NCBI GenBank assembly: GCA_001794755.1
Contig: MGKT01000009.1
Location: forward strand, 1-36,481
Direction of reading: 5' to 3'
DNA length: 36,481 nt
DNA from: Candidatus Yanofskybacteria bacterium RIFCSPLOWO2_02_FULL_44_18
GTDB lineage: Bacteria; Patescibacteriota; Minisyncoccia; 2-02-FULL-40-12; GWA2-44-9
Each line of letters opens with the position of its first letter. The first letter of the stretch is position 1. The translations under genes and the position numbers were made by a program. Below, piece by piece: positions 17,832 to 33,191 of the stretch. Under the pieces are notes generated by a model, which had not been told where the DNA came from, made no database searches, and saw only the letters and a list, made by a program, of their open reading frames with translations.

Positions 17832-19025
17832 TCAGACTCTAAAATTTTTCAGAAACTCTTTTTTGAATTCAAAAAATTTACTCCTTTTTATTGAGGCGCG
17901 GATTTGGGAAAGAAGAGAGTTGAAAAATTTAATGTTGTGAATTGTGGCAAGTCGTTGCCCTTCTAATTTTTGTTGAGGTGTTCCTTTGAAAAGTTTGTGA
18001 ATCTTATTTTTTGAATAGATGCTCTTGCGAATATCGTAAAAGCCATTTTTGGCGTAAATCCGGCCGTGGCGTGCTTCACGCGTGGGAATAACGCAGTCGA
18101 ACATATCGACGCCGTTTTCTACGGCCGTGAAAATATCTTCCACCTTGCCGATACCAAGCAGGTGCCGCGGTTTTTTATCCGGCAAGTGGGGGATAATCCA
18201 TTTCAAGGTTTTTGACATTTCGTCTTTGCCGAAAGAGCCGCCGATGCCAAAGCCGTCAAACGGAAGCGACGCAATATATTTGGCGCTTTTCTGGCGCAGG
18301 TTTTTGTATTTTCCGCCCTGGATAATGCCAAACAATAACTGGCGGGGGTCATAATGTTTCAGACTCTCTTTAGCCCATCGATGCGTGCGTACCAGAGCTT
18401 CCTGGTTGTATTTTTTTCCGTCCAAAGGCGAGGTGCATTCGTCAAAGGCAAAGATAATGTCGGCGCCGATCCGGCTCTGCAATTCCATCGAGAGTTTTGG
18501 TCCAAGAAATCTTTTTTTACCGCCAACCGAAAAATATACCCCATTGTTTGTTATTTTAATATTTTTTCTTTTTAAATTTTTAATTTTCTCGGCCCGTTCT
18601 GACAATATTTTACCGACCTTATTTTCCAAGCCGAAGCCGAGCGAAAAAACCTGGAATCCACCGCTGTCGGTCATAGTGGGCATCATTATTTCCAGTTTGT
18701 TTGATAGGAATGAATGAGGCGACTGATCGCCGTTCGGAACTGCATAAAAAGTCTGTTGACTTTTTTGCTCTTTCTCGGCTACCCGTCTCCGAGTGTTCCT
18801 CAGGCGACCAGTCGACTCGTTTTGGGTGACATTCTGCCAAAGATGGTACGTGTTAGCGATGACGACTTGCGTACCGGTTTTTTTAATATCCAACGGTTCA
18901 AGTGTTTTTACGCTTCCATGCGTGGCAACGATAACATAAGACGGCGTTTTGATGACGCCGTGGGGGGTTTTCAGTAATCCGAGCCGGGCTCGGGAATTTT
19001 TATCTTTTTGCAATATTGTAAACAT
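17832..19025 (-). CDS. tgt: tRNA-guanine transglycosylase with in-frame palindromic insertion and no zinc cysteines
   Basis: Exchanges guanine-34 of GUN-anticodon tRNAs for queuine or preQ1. It has 397 residues. Core motifs are present: TDSGGFQVFSLG, IIFAFDECTSP, LLFGIIQGG, GFGIGGSFG and MFDCVIPTREARHGRIY (nucleophile Asp). Two oddities are seen. First, between NTYHLW and TDSGGFQ about 34 residues (70-103) are encoded by a palindromic repeat element at 18716-18818, in frame. Second, the C-terminal zinc site (CxCxxC plus His) is missing: the only Cys are in FDECTS and FDCVIP, and the segment before ATIHNI is shortened. It may be active without zinc or impaired. It ends 2 bp from the convergent DUF5652-like gene. 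Confidence 0.93.
   Translation of the reverse strand: MFTILQKDKNSRARLGLLKTPHGVIKTPSYVIVATHGSVKTLEPLDIKKTGTQVVIANTYHLWQNVTQNESTGRLRNTRRRVAEKEQKSQQTFYAVPNGDQSPHSFLSNKLEIMMPTMTDSGGFQVFSLGFGLENKVGKILSERAEKIKNLKRKNIKITNNGVYFSVGGKKRFLGPKLSMELQSRIGADIIFAFDECTSPLDGKKYNQEALVRTHRWAKESLKHYDPRQLLFGIIQGGKYKNLRQKSAKYIASLPFDGFGIGGSFGKDEMSKTLKWIIPHLPDKKPRHLLGIGKVEDIFTAVENGVDMFDCVIPTREARHGRIYAKNGFYDIRKSIYSKNKIHKLFKGTPQQKLEGQRLATIHNIKFFNSLLSQIRASIKRSKFFEFKKEFLKNFRV
18716..18818 (-). repeat. Palindromic repeat element, copy 1, inside tgt
   Basis: Outer arms at 18716-18731 and 18803-18818 are complementary at 14 of 16 positions, with one G-T wobble. The core at 18742-18768 is the family hairpin (GCA-AAAAAGTC, loop AACA here, GACTTTTT-A-TGC on the minus strand). 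An inner hairpin CTCGG/CCGAG lies beside it. It is read through in frame by tgt. The loop change AGCA to AACA is synonymous there (CAG to CAA). Confidence 0.85.
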
Positions 19026-19557: not shown

Positions 19558-19695
19558 GCCGGTATGGCATCTGAGAAACGCCCGGAGGACGACTGGTGGT
19601 CGGATAAGGTTCCGGTGCGAAGCCCGGAATCTCTGTCGAGGTAGAGCAAAAAAGTCAGCAGACTTTTTATGTGGTTCCGAAGATGCCATACCGGC
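19558..19695 (+). repeat. Palindromic repeat element, copy 2
   Basis: Perfect 15-bp outer arms, GCCGGTATGGCATCT (19558-19572) and its complement (19681-19695). The family hairpin begins at 19646 (GCA, AAAAAGTC, AGCA, GACTTTTT). A larger variable internal part makes this the longest copy (138 bp). It fills the space between divergent genes. Confidence 0.85.
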
Positions 19696-24860: not shown

Positions 24861-24967
24861 AGAGCAGCGGATTGCCTTGAGGAAAAATTACGCAGCGCGA
24901 CTGGCGCGAGCTAAGCAAAAATTCAGCAGAATTTTATGCGGGTTTCCGAAAGGTAATCCGCTGCTCT
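24861..24967 (+). repeat. Palindromic repeat element, copy 3
   Basis: Outer arms of 17 bp (24861-24877 and 24951-24967) with a single G-T wobble. The family hairpin at 24915-24939 has AAAATTC, AGCA, GAATTTT, that is, both arms changed together relative to AAAGTC/GACTTT in the other copies. It fills the whole gap between the reductase and rpiB. Confidence 0.85.
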
Positions 24968-28853: not shown

Positions 28854-28862
28854 TATGTCTTC

Positions 28863-28960
28863 GCCCGGTGTCATCTCAGGGCGTGCATAAAAAGTCTGCT
28901 GACTTTTTTGCTCGGACTCCTCGCCAGCCGCTCGTCGTGGTCCCTTCGATGACATCAGGC
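28863..28960 (-). repeat. Palindromic repeat element, copy 4
   Basis: Outer arms 28863-28875 and 28948-28960 (13 bp, one wobble and one mismatch). The 60 bp at 28885-28944 are the exact reverse complement of 29751-29810 in copy 5. The family hairpin is at 28885-28911. It ends 7 bp before the short prfA ORF. Confidence 0.9.
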
Positions 28961-28967
28961 TCATCAC

Positions 28968-29726
28968 ATGTCATATCAATATCAGCCTCAATTAAAGACC
29001 CACAATCCGGCCAATGAAGCGATTATAGAAATAAGGGCTGGAACGGGAGGTGACGAAGCGGCCCTTTTTGCGGCCGATGTTTTTGGAATGTACCGGAAAT
29101 ACGCGTTAAGCAAGGGCTGGAAATTTGATCTTATCGATCAAAACCAAATTAGCATCGGCGGATTCAAATCCGTTACTTTTGAAATCAGGGGCGAAGGCGC
29201 TTTTACAAAAATGAAGAACGAATCAGGCGTTCATCGCGTTCAAAGAGTCCCTGCGACGGAGAAAAGCGGGCGCGTCCACACCTCAACGGTGACAGTCGCC
29301 GTTTTACCGAAGGCGGCTGAAAGCGATGTCCAAATACGGCCCGATGAGATTGAAGTTTCATTTTCCCGAGCCGGAGGCCCCGGCGGACAGAATGTGAATA
29401 AAGTGGAAACCGCCGTCAGGGTGCTCCATAAGCCGACAGGCATTGTCGTTTCATCCCGACAGGAGAGATCCCAAGCCCAGAATAGGGAAAAAGCCATGGG
29501 AATCCTAAGGTCCAAATTAATGGCCATAAAACAGGAAGAGGCGACGGGCAACATAACCGAGGAAAGGCGAAAACAAATCGGAACCGGCGACAGGTCGGAA
29601 AAAATAAGAACATATAATTTCCCCCAGGATCGGATTACCGATCACAGAATAAAAAAAAGCTGGGGGAATATGTATAAAATCCTGGCCGGCAACCTCGATC
29701 CGGTATTTGATGCGCTTGGATCGTAA
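28968..29726 (+). CDS. prfA: Peptide chain release factor 1, short form lacking domain 1
   Basis: Recognises UAA/UAG and triggers peptide release. The catalytic loop [14 protein letters not shown] (GGQ) and the codon-reading motif [15 protein letters not shown] (PAT, RF1 type) are intact, as are [30 protein letters not shown] and [12 protein letters not shown]. It is only 252 residues, against about 360 for full-length RF1: the helical domain 1 (roughly the first 90-100 residues) is absent. Homology begins within 20 residues of the ATG. Palindromic element copy 4 ends 7 bp upstream and copy 5 begins 7 bp after the stop, in opposite orientation. It could be a natural short RF1 or a gene truncated by the insertion. 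Confidence 0.88.
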
Positions 29727-29733
29727 AAGCGGA

Positions 29734-29833
29734 GCCGGCATGGTATCAGAGGGACCACGACGAGCGGCTGGCGAGGAGTCCGAGCAAAAAAGTCAGCAGA
29801 CTTTTTATGCGTGCCCACTGATGCCATGCCGGC
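29734..29833 (+). repeat. Palindromic repeat element, copy 5
   Basis: 16-bp outer arms (29734-29749 and 29818-29833) with one G-T wobble. Its outer arm GCCGGCATGGTATC resembles copy 2 (GCCGGTATGGCATC). The 60-bp core (29751-29810) is identical to the reverse complement of copy 4. It lies between prfA and rpsB. Confidence 0.9.
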
Positions 29834-29842
29834 GTAGCATGT

Positions 29843-31693: not shown

Positions 31694-31817
31694 CAGTTGT
31701 TTGTGTCTTTGTACAATTTTTATTTAGGAATTTATCTTAACTCGCTGCATGGTCCGAAAGAGGTTTGATTTTATTTAGTTTGCCATTTACGGTATGGTAG
31801 AGTGGTCAATAATCGGG

Positions 31818-31823
31818 TATAAT
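31818..31823 (+). promoter_or_regulatory. -10 box of a predicted leaderless homing endonuclease mRNA
   Basis: A perfect TATAAT ends 6 nt before the ATG at 31830. The -35 region is weak. The remainder of 31694-31817 holds no recognised gene. Confidence 0.45.
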
Positions 31824-31829
31824 ACACTA

Positions 31830-32630
31830 ATGCCGAGAAAGTGGACTAATCAGGACACGCTTACTTACAGAAGACAATTGATCAGGCTTTATAGCAAAGA
31901 AAATTTGTCAATATTTGAAGTTGGGGAAAAACTTGGTCTGAGTTACCAGTGTATATTTCAGAGATTGAAACGTCTCGGTATTAAAATATCTCCTGAATCA
32001 AAAAAAGGATACACTAACAAGAGATCCTTGAATCGTTTACAGGAATCTCAAGACTTGGCTGAGTTTATAGGGATAATGTTGGGTGATGGACATATATCTC
32101 GGGAGCAGATTTTTGTCACATTGGGCAAGAAAGAAAAAGCATATGTTGCTTATGTAATCGAGCTTTTTAGAAGAGTATATGCGTGCGAACTAAAGTGTAT
32201 GCTAAACAAAAAAGGCCACCATGTTCTTTATATCGGTTTTAGGAATTTGGTAGATTATCTTTTGAGTATTGGATTAGTTATGAATAAGGTAAAAGAGCAG
32301 GTTAAAGTTCCAAGCTGGATTTTTAGGGATAGAAAGTATATAATTGGTTTCTTGAGAGGATTCTTTGATACTGATGGTTCTATATATAAGCTAAAGCATG
32401 GTATTCAAATATCCTTCTGCAACATGTCTATGCCTCTTCTGGATAACACTAGAACTGCTCTAATTTCCTTAGGATTTAGTCCTTCAAAAATTAGTTCAAA
32501 TCGTGTCTACCTAACGAAGAAAAAGGATTTACTAAGATATAAAAAAGAAATAGGTTCAGCAAACCCAACTAAAATGGAGAGAATCAATAAATGGGTAGGT
32601 ACGGAAGTAGCCAAACCGGGCACGCTGTAA
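31830..32630 (+). CDS. LAGLIDADG homing endonuclease with N-terminal HTH
   Basis: 266 residues from the ATG at 31830. Another ATG at 31794 lies upstream of the -10 box. Residues about 12-50 form an HTH (RLYSKENLSIFEVGEKLGLS then YQCIFQRLKRLGI). Two LAGLIDADG helices follow: LAEFIGIMLGDGHIS (about 76-90) and YIIGFLRGFFDTDGSIY (about 170-186), each ending in the catalytic Asp, so a single-chain nuclease. The gene is more AT-rich than its neighbours. Its last 38 bp lie inside the tRNA-Tyr gene, and its TAA stop is formed by the tRNA anticodon loop. It is free-standing, not inside the nearby intron, and may act on a tRNA locus. Confidence 0.92.
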   Translation: MPRKWTNQDTLTYRRQLIRLYSKENLSIFEVGEKLGLSYQCIFQRLKRLGIKISPESKKGYTNKRSLNRLQESQDLAEFIGIMLGDGHISREQIFVTLGKKEKAYVAYVIELFRRVYACELKCMLNKKGHHVLYIGFRNLVDYLLSIGLVMNKVKEQVKVPSWIFRDRKYIIGFLRGFFDTDGSIYKLKHGIQISFCNMSMPLLDNTRTALISLGFSPSKISSNRVYLTKKKDLLRYKKEIGSANPTKMERINKWVGTEVAKPGTL

Positions 32631-32676
32631 ACGTGCTGGCCATGTGCCTTCGGGGGTGCAAATCCCTCCCTGCCCA
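32593..32676 (+). tRNA. tRNA-Tyr (anticodon GUA)
   Basis: Type II tRNA: acceptor GGGTAGG/CCTGCCC (one G-U), D-stem CGG/CCG, anticodon stem GCACG/CGTGC with loop CTGTAAA (GTA), long variable arm GGC/GCC, T-stem GGGGG/CCCTC, discriminator A. The T-loop is TGCAAAT, with G instead of the usual U (pseudouridine) at position 55. The first 38 nt are also the coding end of the homing endonuclease. Confidence 0.92.
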
Positions 32677-32694: not shown

Positions 32695-32947
32695 GCCGAC
32701 GTAGCTCAGAGGTAGAGCAACTCCATGGTAAATAAATTGCCCACTATTTTAGTAATAGATTAGTGAATCCCGAATTACGGTTAAAAGCCAGCCAGGCTCA
32801 GACCGTTCCGCAGTAAGCGGACGAACGACTGACAAGGGGTCCGTACCAATAATGGCGGATAAGATACAGTCTAATCCTCTTATAGGTTGAAATAAAAAGA
32901 GGTACAAATGAAGGAGTAGGTCGTGAGTTCAATTCTCACCGTCGGCT
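32695..32947 (+). tRNA. tRNA-Thr (anticodon GGU), interrupted by a group I intron
   Basis: Exon 1 is 32695-32729 and exon 2 is 32911-32947. Joined, they give acceptor GCCGACG/CGTCGGC, D-arm GCTC/GAGC, anticodon stem ACTCC/GGAGT with loop ATGGTAA (anticodon GGT), T-arm GTGAG/CTCAC with loop TTCAATT, and discriminator T. The intron splits the anticodon loop directly after the anticodon. CCA is not encoded. Confidence 0.92.
32730..32910 (+). ncRNA. Group I self-splicing intron in the anticodon loop of tRNA-Thr(GGU)
   Basis: 181 nt, no ORF. The 5' splice site follows a U (exon ends ATGGT) and the intron ends in G (ACAAATG), both group I rules. Core pairings can be traced in order: P3 GACC, P4-P6 with CCGC/GCGG, P7 GACTG, P3' GGTC, P8, then AAGATACAGTC, the conserved J8/7 plus P7' (CAGTC pairs with GACTG). 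GCC near 32738 can pair with the exon GGT through a U-G wobble (P1). The small size, the absence of an ORF and the anticodon-loop site resemble bacterial tRNA introns of the IC3 type. Confidence 0.88.
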
Positions 32948-33115
32948 CAGTCGAGAAAATAATTTTAATTATTTTCGGGTGAGAATTGAAAGGCGGAGCG
33001 ATGTTTCAATCAGCAGATTGAAACCGCGAGACGGGGTCGCGACCGAGCCGAGCTGTGGAGAGGCGAGAGTGGTGACCAATTCTCACCGTCGGCTCAGTCG
33101 AGAAAATAATTTTAA
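32930..33115 (+). repeat. 39-bp direct repeats duplicating the tRNA-Thr 3' end, with nested palindromes
   Basis: 32930-32968 and 33077-33115 are identical over 39 bp. Each begins with 18 nt of the tRNA-Thr 3' end. Just after the first copy comes a partial inverted copy: GAAAATAATT/AATTATTTTC (32955-32976), then GGTGAGAATTGAA (32978-32990), the complement of 32928-32940. The interval also holds a hairpin with 9-bp arms and an AGCA loop (33003-33024) and the palindrome GGTCGCGACC (33035-33044). This resembles an insertion or recombination scar at a tRNA gene. Confidence 0.75.
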
Positions 33116-33191
33116 ATAAACATAAATCACGCTACGATTCAATATTGAAGGATACTTCAGCAGTGAATAAGTAAGGTGGTTTAACAAAAAA

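Follow-up and report, generated by a model that had tools for sequence, protein, structure and literature searches.

The tgt gene in the 36,481-nt window studied here, i.e., the whole stretch of a Candidatus Yanofskybacteria contig that was analysed, encodes a queuine tRNA-ribosyltransferase (Tgt) of 397 amino acids with some 34 additional residues between NTYHLW and TDSGGFQ, and the question is what this stretch is and how it came to lie there. A sequence-only reading had proposed that a palindromic element at 18716-18818 is inserted in frame inside tgt, and this was confirmed: in the segment, referred to as copy D, the outer arms pair together and the inner hairpin pairs, the hairpin is repeated elsewhere in the window, a covariance model recognises the whole segment, and the reading frame is open, without a stop codon, across residues 70-103. 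The claimed gain of about 34 residues without a broken frame was also borne out by the coordinates, with residue 70 beginning at 18818 and residue 103 finishing at 18717, so that 18716-18818 corresponds to residues 70-103 plus one base. The same applies to the proposed synonymous change in the hairpin loop, where AGCA to AACA converts codon CAG into CAA, both Gln. The GC content of copy D is 0.53, compared to 0.43 for the remainder of tgt, and the peptide that it encodes includes the residues around EQKSQQTFYAVPNG. We estimate a probability of roughly 0.74 that 18716-18818 represents one copy of a MITE/REP-like mobile repeat, non-autonomous, that occurs in the host's class of CPR bacteria. The features are listed in Table 1.

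Table 1. Positions of tgt and of the repeat copies in the window
Feature	Positions	Strand	Evidence and remarks
Copy D (P1 arms, P2, and P3)	18716..18818	-	Element sense is tgt sense; fold; model R2, 75.7 bits
P3 hairpin of copy D (AACA loop, bulged A)	18742..18770	-	Repeat, 97% identical to 28884-28913; fold
tgt, queuine tRNA-ribosyltransferase, carrier of copy D	17832..19025	-	PF01702, E=1.4e-88; TIGR00430, 317 bits (cut-off 306.75)
Copy A, intergenic, enlarged P2 region	19558..19695	+	Model, 49.1 bits; fold; divergent partner of D, 792 bp off
Copy E, upstream of rpiB, diverged	24861..24967	+	Model, 61.5 bits; fold
Copy C, upstream of prfA	28860..28962	-	Model, 75.3 bits; 89% inverted match to copy B
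Copy B, downstream of prfA	29729..29838	+	Model, 86.9 bits; fold; divergent partner of C

The element is about 100-150 nt long, and one of its strands is predicted to fold as a three-way junction, in which P1 is a long helix, frequently interrupted close to the junction by a tandem GA/GA internal loop, P2 is a hairpin that varies between copies, and P3 is a conserved hairpin that has a bulged A and an AGNA loop. The three-way junction was the MFE structure in 155 of 173 copies, and GA/GA was the commonest inner loop (58 of the 173). RNA models R1 and then R2 were constructed from copies of the element. When sequences were aligned by cmsearch with R1 (alignment A4), 94.4% of the cells were paired compared to 65.1% after shuffling, with 524 versus 148 double-change cells, and the alignment of 24 distinct sequences from outside the family with R2 (A5) gave 96.2% versus 60.8%; both models carry the structure, so these pairing figures are inflated, and the A5 sequences, although from other genomes, were selected by the model, with an alignment that is not independent of the structure. 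Fitting alone is an unlikely source of the excess, because the excess is large, slid-register controls gave 38.9-52.2% (A4) and 38.9-50.8% (A5), and single-sequence folds made without a model produced the same helices. Wobble pairs showed a strand bias, with G.U to A.C ratios of 70:15 in A4 and 26:0 in A5, to which the fitting caveat also applies, and this bias suggests that it is the element-sense strand that would fold. In Rfam, the element had no match above the gathering threshold.

With the covariance model, five copies were found in the window and nine in the host genome. The scores in the window range from 86.9 to 49.1 bits (E 1e-21 to 5e-11); four of the five copies went into the first model, which makes the scores of these four non-independent. 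The P3 hairpin was found again at 19644-19688, 28884-28913, and 29782-29810, and in copy E it carries compensatory changes from GTC/GAC to TTC/GAA. Between copies C and B lies a prfA-like ORF (28968-29726, 252 aa), whose match to release factor 1 begins only at profile position 101 and scores below the cut-off. A mobile gene carried as cargo between paired copies was considered and rejected, since the enclosed genes look ordinary (prfA, and genes that we take by inspection to be yebC and dprA). Elsewhere in the window, at 32930-33118, the 3' end of tRNA-Thr is directly repeated over 42 bp at a distance of 147 bp, and this repeat surrounds a palindromic stretch that has an AGCA-loop hairpin at 33004. 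This palindrome near tRNA-Thr (32972-33118) was examined as a possible family member and discarded, as model R2 does not recognise it. The tRNA-Thr-like gene (32700-32942) has an anticodon loop split by about 190 nt that resemble a group I intron, with an Rfam RF00028 score of only 17.9 bits, below the cut-off, and a LAGLIDADG endonuclease ORF is located at 31794-32630 (PF14528, 4.6e-12), its end overlapping a tRNA at 32593-32676.

Among 28 genomes of the family, 17 contained the element, with 165 copies in total and 1 to 31 copies per genome (E<=0.01). A first search of relatives had suggested a family-restricted element, but this was not upheld, as a broader model matches 15 other families: of 286 genomes sampled from the class, 33 matched at E<=0.001, 24 of these in the 15 other families, counts that are a lower bound given the strict filters. 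Ten named records (85 kb) yielded four matches, of which those in L048 (Paceibacterota) and L050 (Nomurabacteria) were strong and two were weak. As a non-CPR control, 548 kb of DNA surrounding tgt in other phyla gave no match up to E=1, and phage, plasmid, and viral collections, queried with two patterns and one blastn query, contained no copies.

Whole units, arms included, are gained or lost between sister species. In genome G023, a copy lies between two genes that we take by inspection to be ruvB and yebC, whereas in G005 the corresponding stop and start nearly touch and in G017 the gap is about 14 nt. Likewise, opposite copy L250 of G021, the empty site in G012 has 7 nt from stop to start, and opposite L253 there is a short gap without the element, while opposite L128, G012 has a terminator-like hairpin that seems to be native. 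These empty-site comparisons are between sister species, with one genome per species. Loss of a copy is conceivable as the origin of an empty site; gain is favoured because the native gaps are short, and we read the differences between sister species as probable gains. In line with a MITE, the element is short, non-autonomous, and without an ORF of its own, and its insertion can be read from the empty sites. No reliable target-site duplication was seen, with a possible 9-bp repeat at L253 only. Copies occur in both orientations, and their arms are inverted repeats, yet these are frequently not common to different copies. Insertion into pre-existing palindromes was rejected as a general rule, as it was not seen at the empty sites of L205 and L250, although L128 does sit in a hairpin. 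Inverted target duplication as the source of the arms was also rejected, since a matching native arm is absent at the empty sites of relatives, the sequences that this comparison covers.

Four of 173 examined copies sit in frame in recognised intact genes, namely tgt, a GT4 glycosyltransferase gene (G025), recG (G128), and mutY (G119), a genic share of about 2%, with several short ORFs over copies taken to be spurious; the majority of copies are intergenic. A UDP-glucose dehydrogenase gene was considered as the site of copy L214 and dismissed, since this copy is intergenic. In the recG copy, the outer palindrome may extend into native codons, as judged by inspection. A weaker fifth case is an antisense copy (25 bits, E=0.0006) in tgt of Nomurabacteria GW2011_GWE1_32_28 (record L052), which folds with P1, P2, and a P3 with an AGCA loop and lies in a different variable tgt loop; together with copy D, this indicates that two distinct tgt loops were struck in separate lineages. 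At the aligned sites (both tgt points and GT4), the insertion point is a hypervariable loop among relatives. CPR genomes are mostly coding, and a genic share near 2% thus indicates that insertion into genes, or survival there, is strongly disfavoured. Selection would almost always purge genic insertions, the survivors being those that keep the frame and, in tgt and GT4, those located in loops that would tolerate changes in length. Three of the four genic copies use the element frame with ..QQ.., whereas the recG copy is read in another frame. Because of this difference, and because the Nomurabacteria tgt copy is antisense, the element has no dedicated peptide.

To return to Tgt itself, the alignment showed that segment 70-103 is missing from 28 Tgts of the nearest genomes and from ten of named, mostly CPR, records. 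The expectation had been that relatives lack the segment and that the flanks align without a gap; the former was the case, but the latter was not, as relatives have, between NTYHLW and TDSGGFQ, a loop of highly variable length and sequence. In an AlphaFold2 model, run with an alignment of 28 sequences, the fold is confident outside residues 65-110 and two short segments (mean pLDDT 78.8, pTM 0.81), and the pLDDT below 50 over residues 65-110 is what a disordered loop would be expected to give. Transcription and translation would turn copy D into a disordered stretch of about 34 residues within the protein. The protein keeps the motifs DSGGFQ and DMFDCVIPTR. Copy D is probably one copy of a dispersed mobile repeat, accommodated in a naturally variable loop of Tgt. 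Of note, the part of Tgt encoded by 17832-18130 is without the zinc-binding cysteines CxCxxC, as in a few relatives, while most relatives keep this segment; the absence may reflect a relaxed constraint on the gene, which could account for tolerance of the insert. Also, Tgts of several Nomurabacteria-type records (L044, L046, and L050) carry long insertions in a second loop, which precedes ALFGIVQGG and is the site of the element in L052.

To see how arms relate to cores, we compared copies from the same genome with cores at least 95% identical. In G023, identity drops to about 0.3-0.4 within 8 nt of the core, and in G021 and G015 it declines more gradually, by about 12-20 nt from the core, while self-pairing per copy stays at about 0.8-0.9 or above for 16-20 bp. 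For 20-nt arms, self-complementarity was 0.69-0.91 by genome, versus a cross-complementarity between copies of 0.47-0.75, highest in G017. In G017, copies are near-identical over the entire unit, arms too, and homology in G014 runs beyond the arms, which, set against G023, G021, and G015, indicates that both modes exist. Plain copy-and-paste does not explain unrelated arms on near-identical cores, and this counts against the mobile-repeat explanation; possible explanations are gene conversion of cores, core exchange, or a rapid compensatory or template-switch correction of arms. Neighbouring copies within 1.2 kb form 17 pairs, compared to about 4 expected under uniform placement, and all but one of these pairs are divergent (16 of 17; binomial p = 3e-9 versus one in four), including D/A and C/B. 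A tentative and rather doubtful interpretation is that the repeat belongs to a CPR-specific mobile class, in which the folded core spreads or homogenises apart from the arms, each copy has its own self-complementary arms, and copies settle in divergent pairs.

Instead of a mobile repeat, the element might be a functional structured RNA, such as a terminator, an mRNA stabiliser, or an sRNA, that is under selection and was copied incidentally. The covariation and the G.U bias, from alignments fitted to the structure, argue for this, as do L128 and L245, which are terminator-like with A-run and T-run flanks, L128 moreover occupying the place of the terminator-like hairpin in the sister genome. 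However, the orientation to adjoining genes is near random and, if anything, antisense (56 antisense and 34 sense, in tandem contexts), the element is patchy among sister species, with orthologous sites compared in the same genus lacking a copy, and coding loops hold copies on either strand, and we consider a functional RNA unlikely. For a mobile repeat, a beneficial role would not be needed, and a trans-acting recombinase would recognise the folded single strand. No mobilising enzyme was found among the two profiles searched, Y1_Tnp (PF01797) and RVT_1. The bulged hairpin and the divergent dimers, in some of which the two members differ, as also happens in REP dimers (PMC3733652), would suit a REP-type element moved by a RAYT/IS200-like Y1 transposase that may have been lost or diverged (G023 is 86% complete). 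We give this little credence: Y1_Tnp is absent in the host genome (G000) and in the copy-rich G023, G025, and G017, whereas G005 has six Y1_Tnp matches and zero copies, and the size and fold are unlike those of REPs. Retro-mobilisation of an RNA element by a cellular reverse transcriptase, for which the RNA-like fold and the RVT_1 proteins common in the family could be cited, is very improbable, as RVT_1 was not found in G017, G021 (87% complete), and G015 despite 8, 18, and 18 copies. As far as these profiles see, neither enzyme is required, with incomplete genomes and diverged proteins as caveats.

Other alternatives concern the tgt segment alone. A big stable structure within a coding region might suggest that the insert is removed or bypassed at the RNA or translation level, as an intron or bypass element, but the frame is open, the length is neutral, and known splicing or bypass signatures are absent, which leaves hardly any room for this idea. 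The loop differs widely in length and sequence across the family, as it might if the segment were a native, lineage-specific loop with a secondary likeness to the repeat. This is extremely improbable in view of the 75.7-bit model score, the 97% identity of P3 to that of another copy, and the deviating GC content, and the repeat match brings it close to refutation.

With the segment read as a copy of a mobile repeat, known systems can be compared. Rickettsia palindromic elements (RPEs) and the WPEs of Wolbachia are likewise dispersed palindromes of about 100-150 bp, some in frame inside conserved genes; they occur in another phylum, and the likeness is at the level of description. RPEs form a long stem-loop (PMC2229807) instead of a three-way junction, and nearly half of those in R. 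conorii lie in ORFs (PMC10969869), a frequent coding position that the CPR element, at about 2%, does not share. The RPE-like character suggested by the sequence-only reading thus stood for dispersal, insertion, and in-frame uptake in conserved genes, but not for peptide creation as a defining trait, with 4 of 173 copies genic. Relative to RPEs, an independent origin appears to fit better than spread. REP, BIME, and REPIN elements resemble the CPR element as intergenic palindromes that often form inverted dimers, including dimers of unlike members. REPs are 20-40 bp long, most with a GTAG or CGTC tag (PMC3733652), and those of the GTAG type are linked to RAYT, the Y1 domain of which is absent from the host genome; the CPR element thus differs from RAYT-linked REPs in both size and transposase. 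Bacterial MITEs (ERIC/RU-1, NEMIS/Correia, YPAL/RU-2, and RUP) are about 100-200 bp long, with highly base-paired transcripts and occasional in-frame fusion (PMC2229807). Unlike in these, no terminal inverted repeat common to all copies and no clear target-site duplication were found in the CPR element, and its arms vary freely among copies. Integron attC sites may be likened to it in that structure rather than sequence is conserved and one strand is folded; the CPR element differs in that it is not found in cassette arrays. Taken together, the CPR element is probably a variant of the MITE/palindromic-repeat kind that acts in an RPE- or MITE-like manner, inserting and sometimes becoming coding. 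A description of it was not found in the open literature, which is a weak negative.

CPR bacteria are ultra-small, with small genomes that are considered streamlined, yet the repeat was found in no fewer than 16 families of a single class, and copies have entered core genes such as recG, mutY, and tgt. This adds another lineage, remote from Rickettsiales, with palindromes that turned coding in frame, and provides a natural insertion set with which to test the places where inserts are tolerated in proteins. Any model of spread has to account for the arm/core split and the divergent pairing, both of them measurable, and if there is indeed a class in which cores spread apart from arms, it would need a transposition or repair mechanism undescribed for MITEs or REPs.
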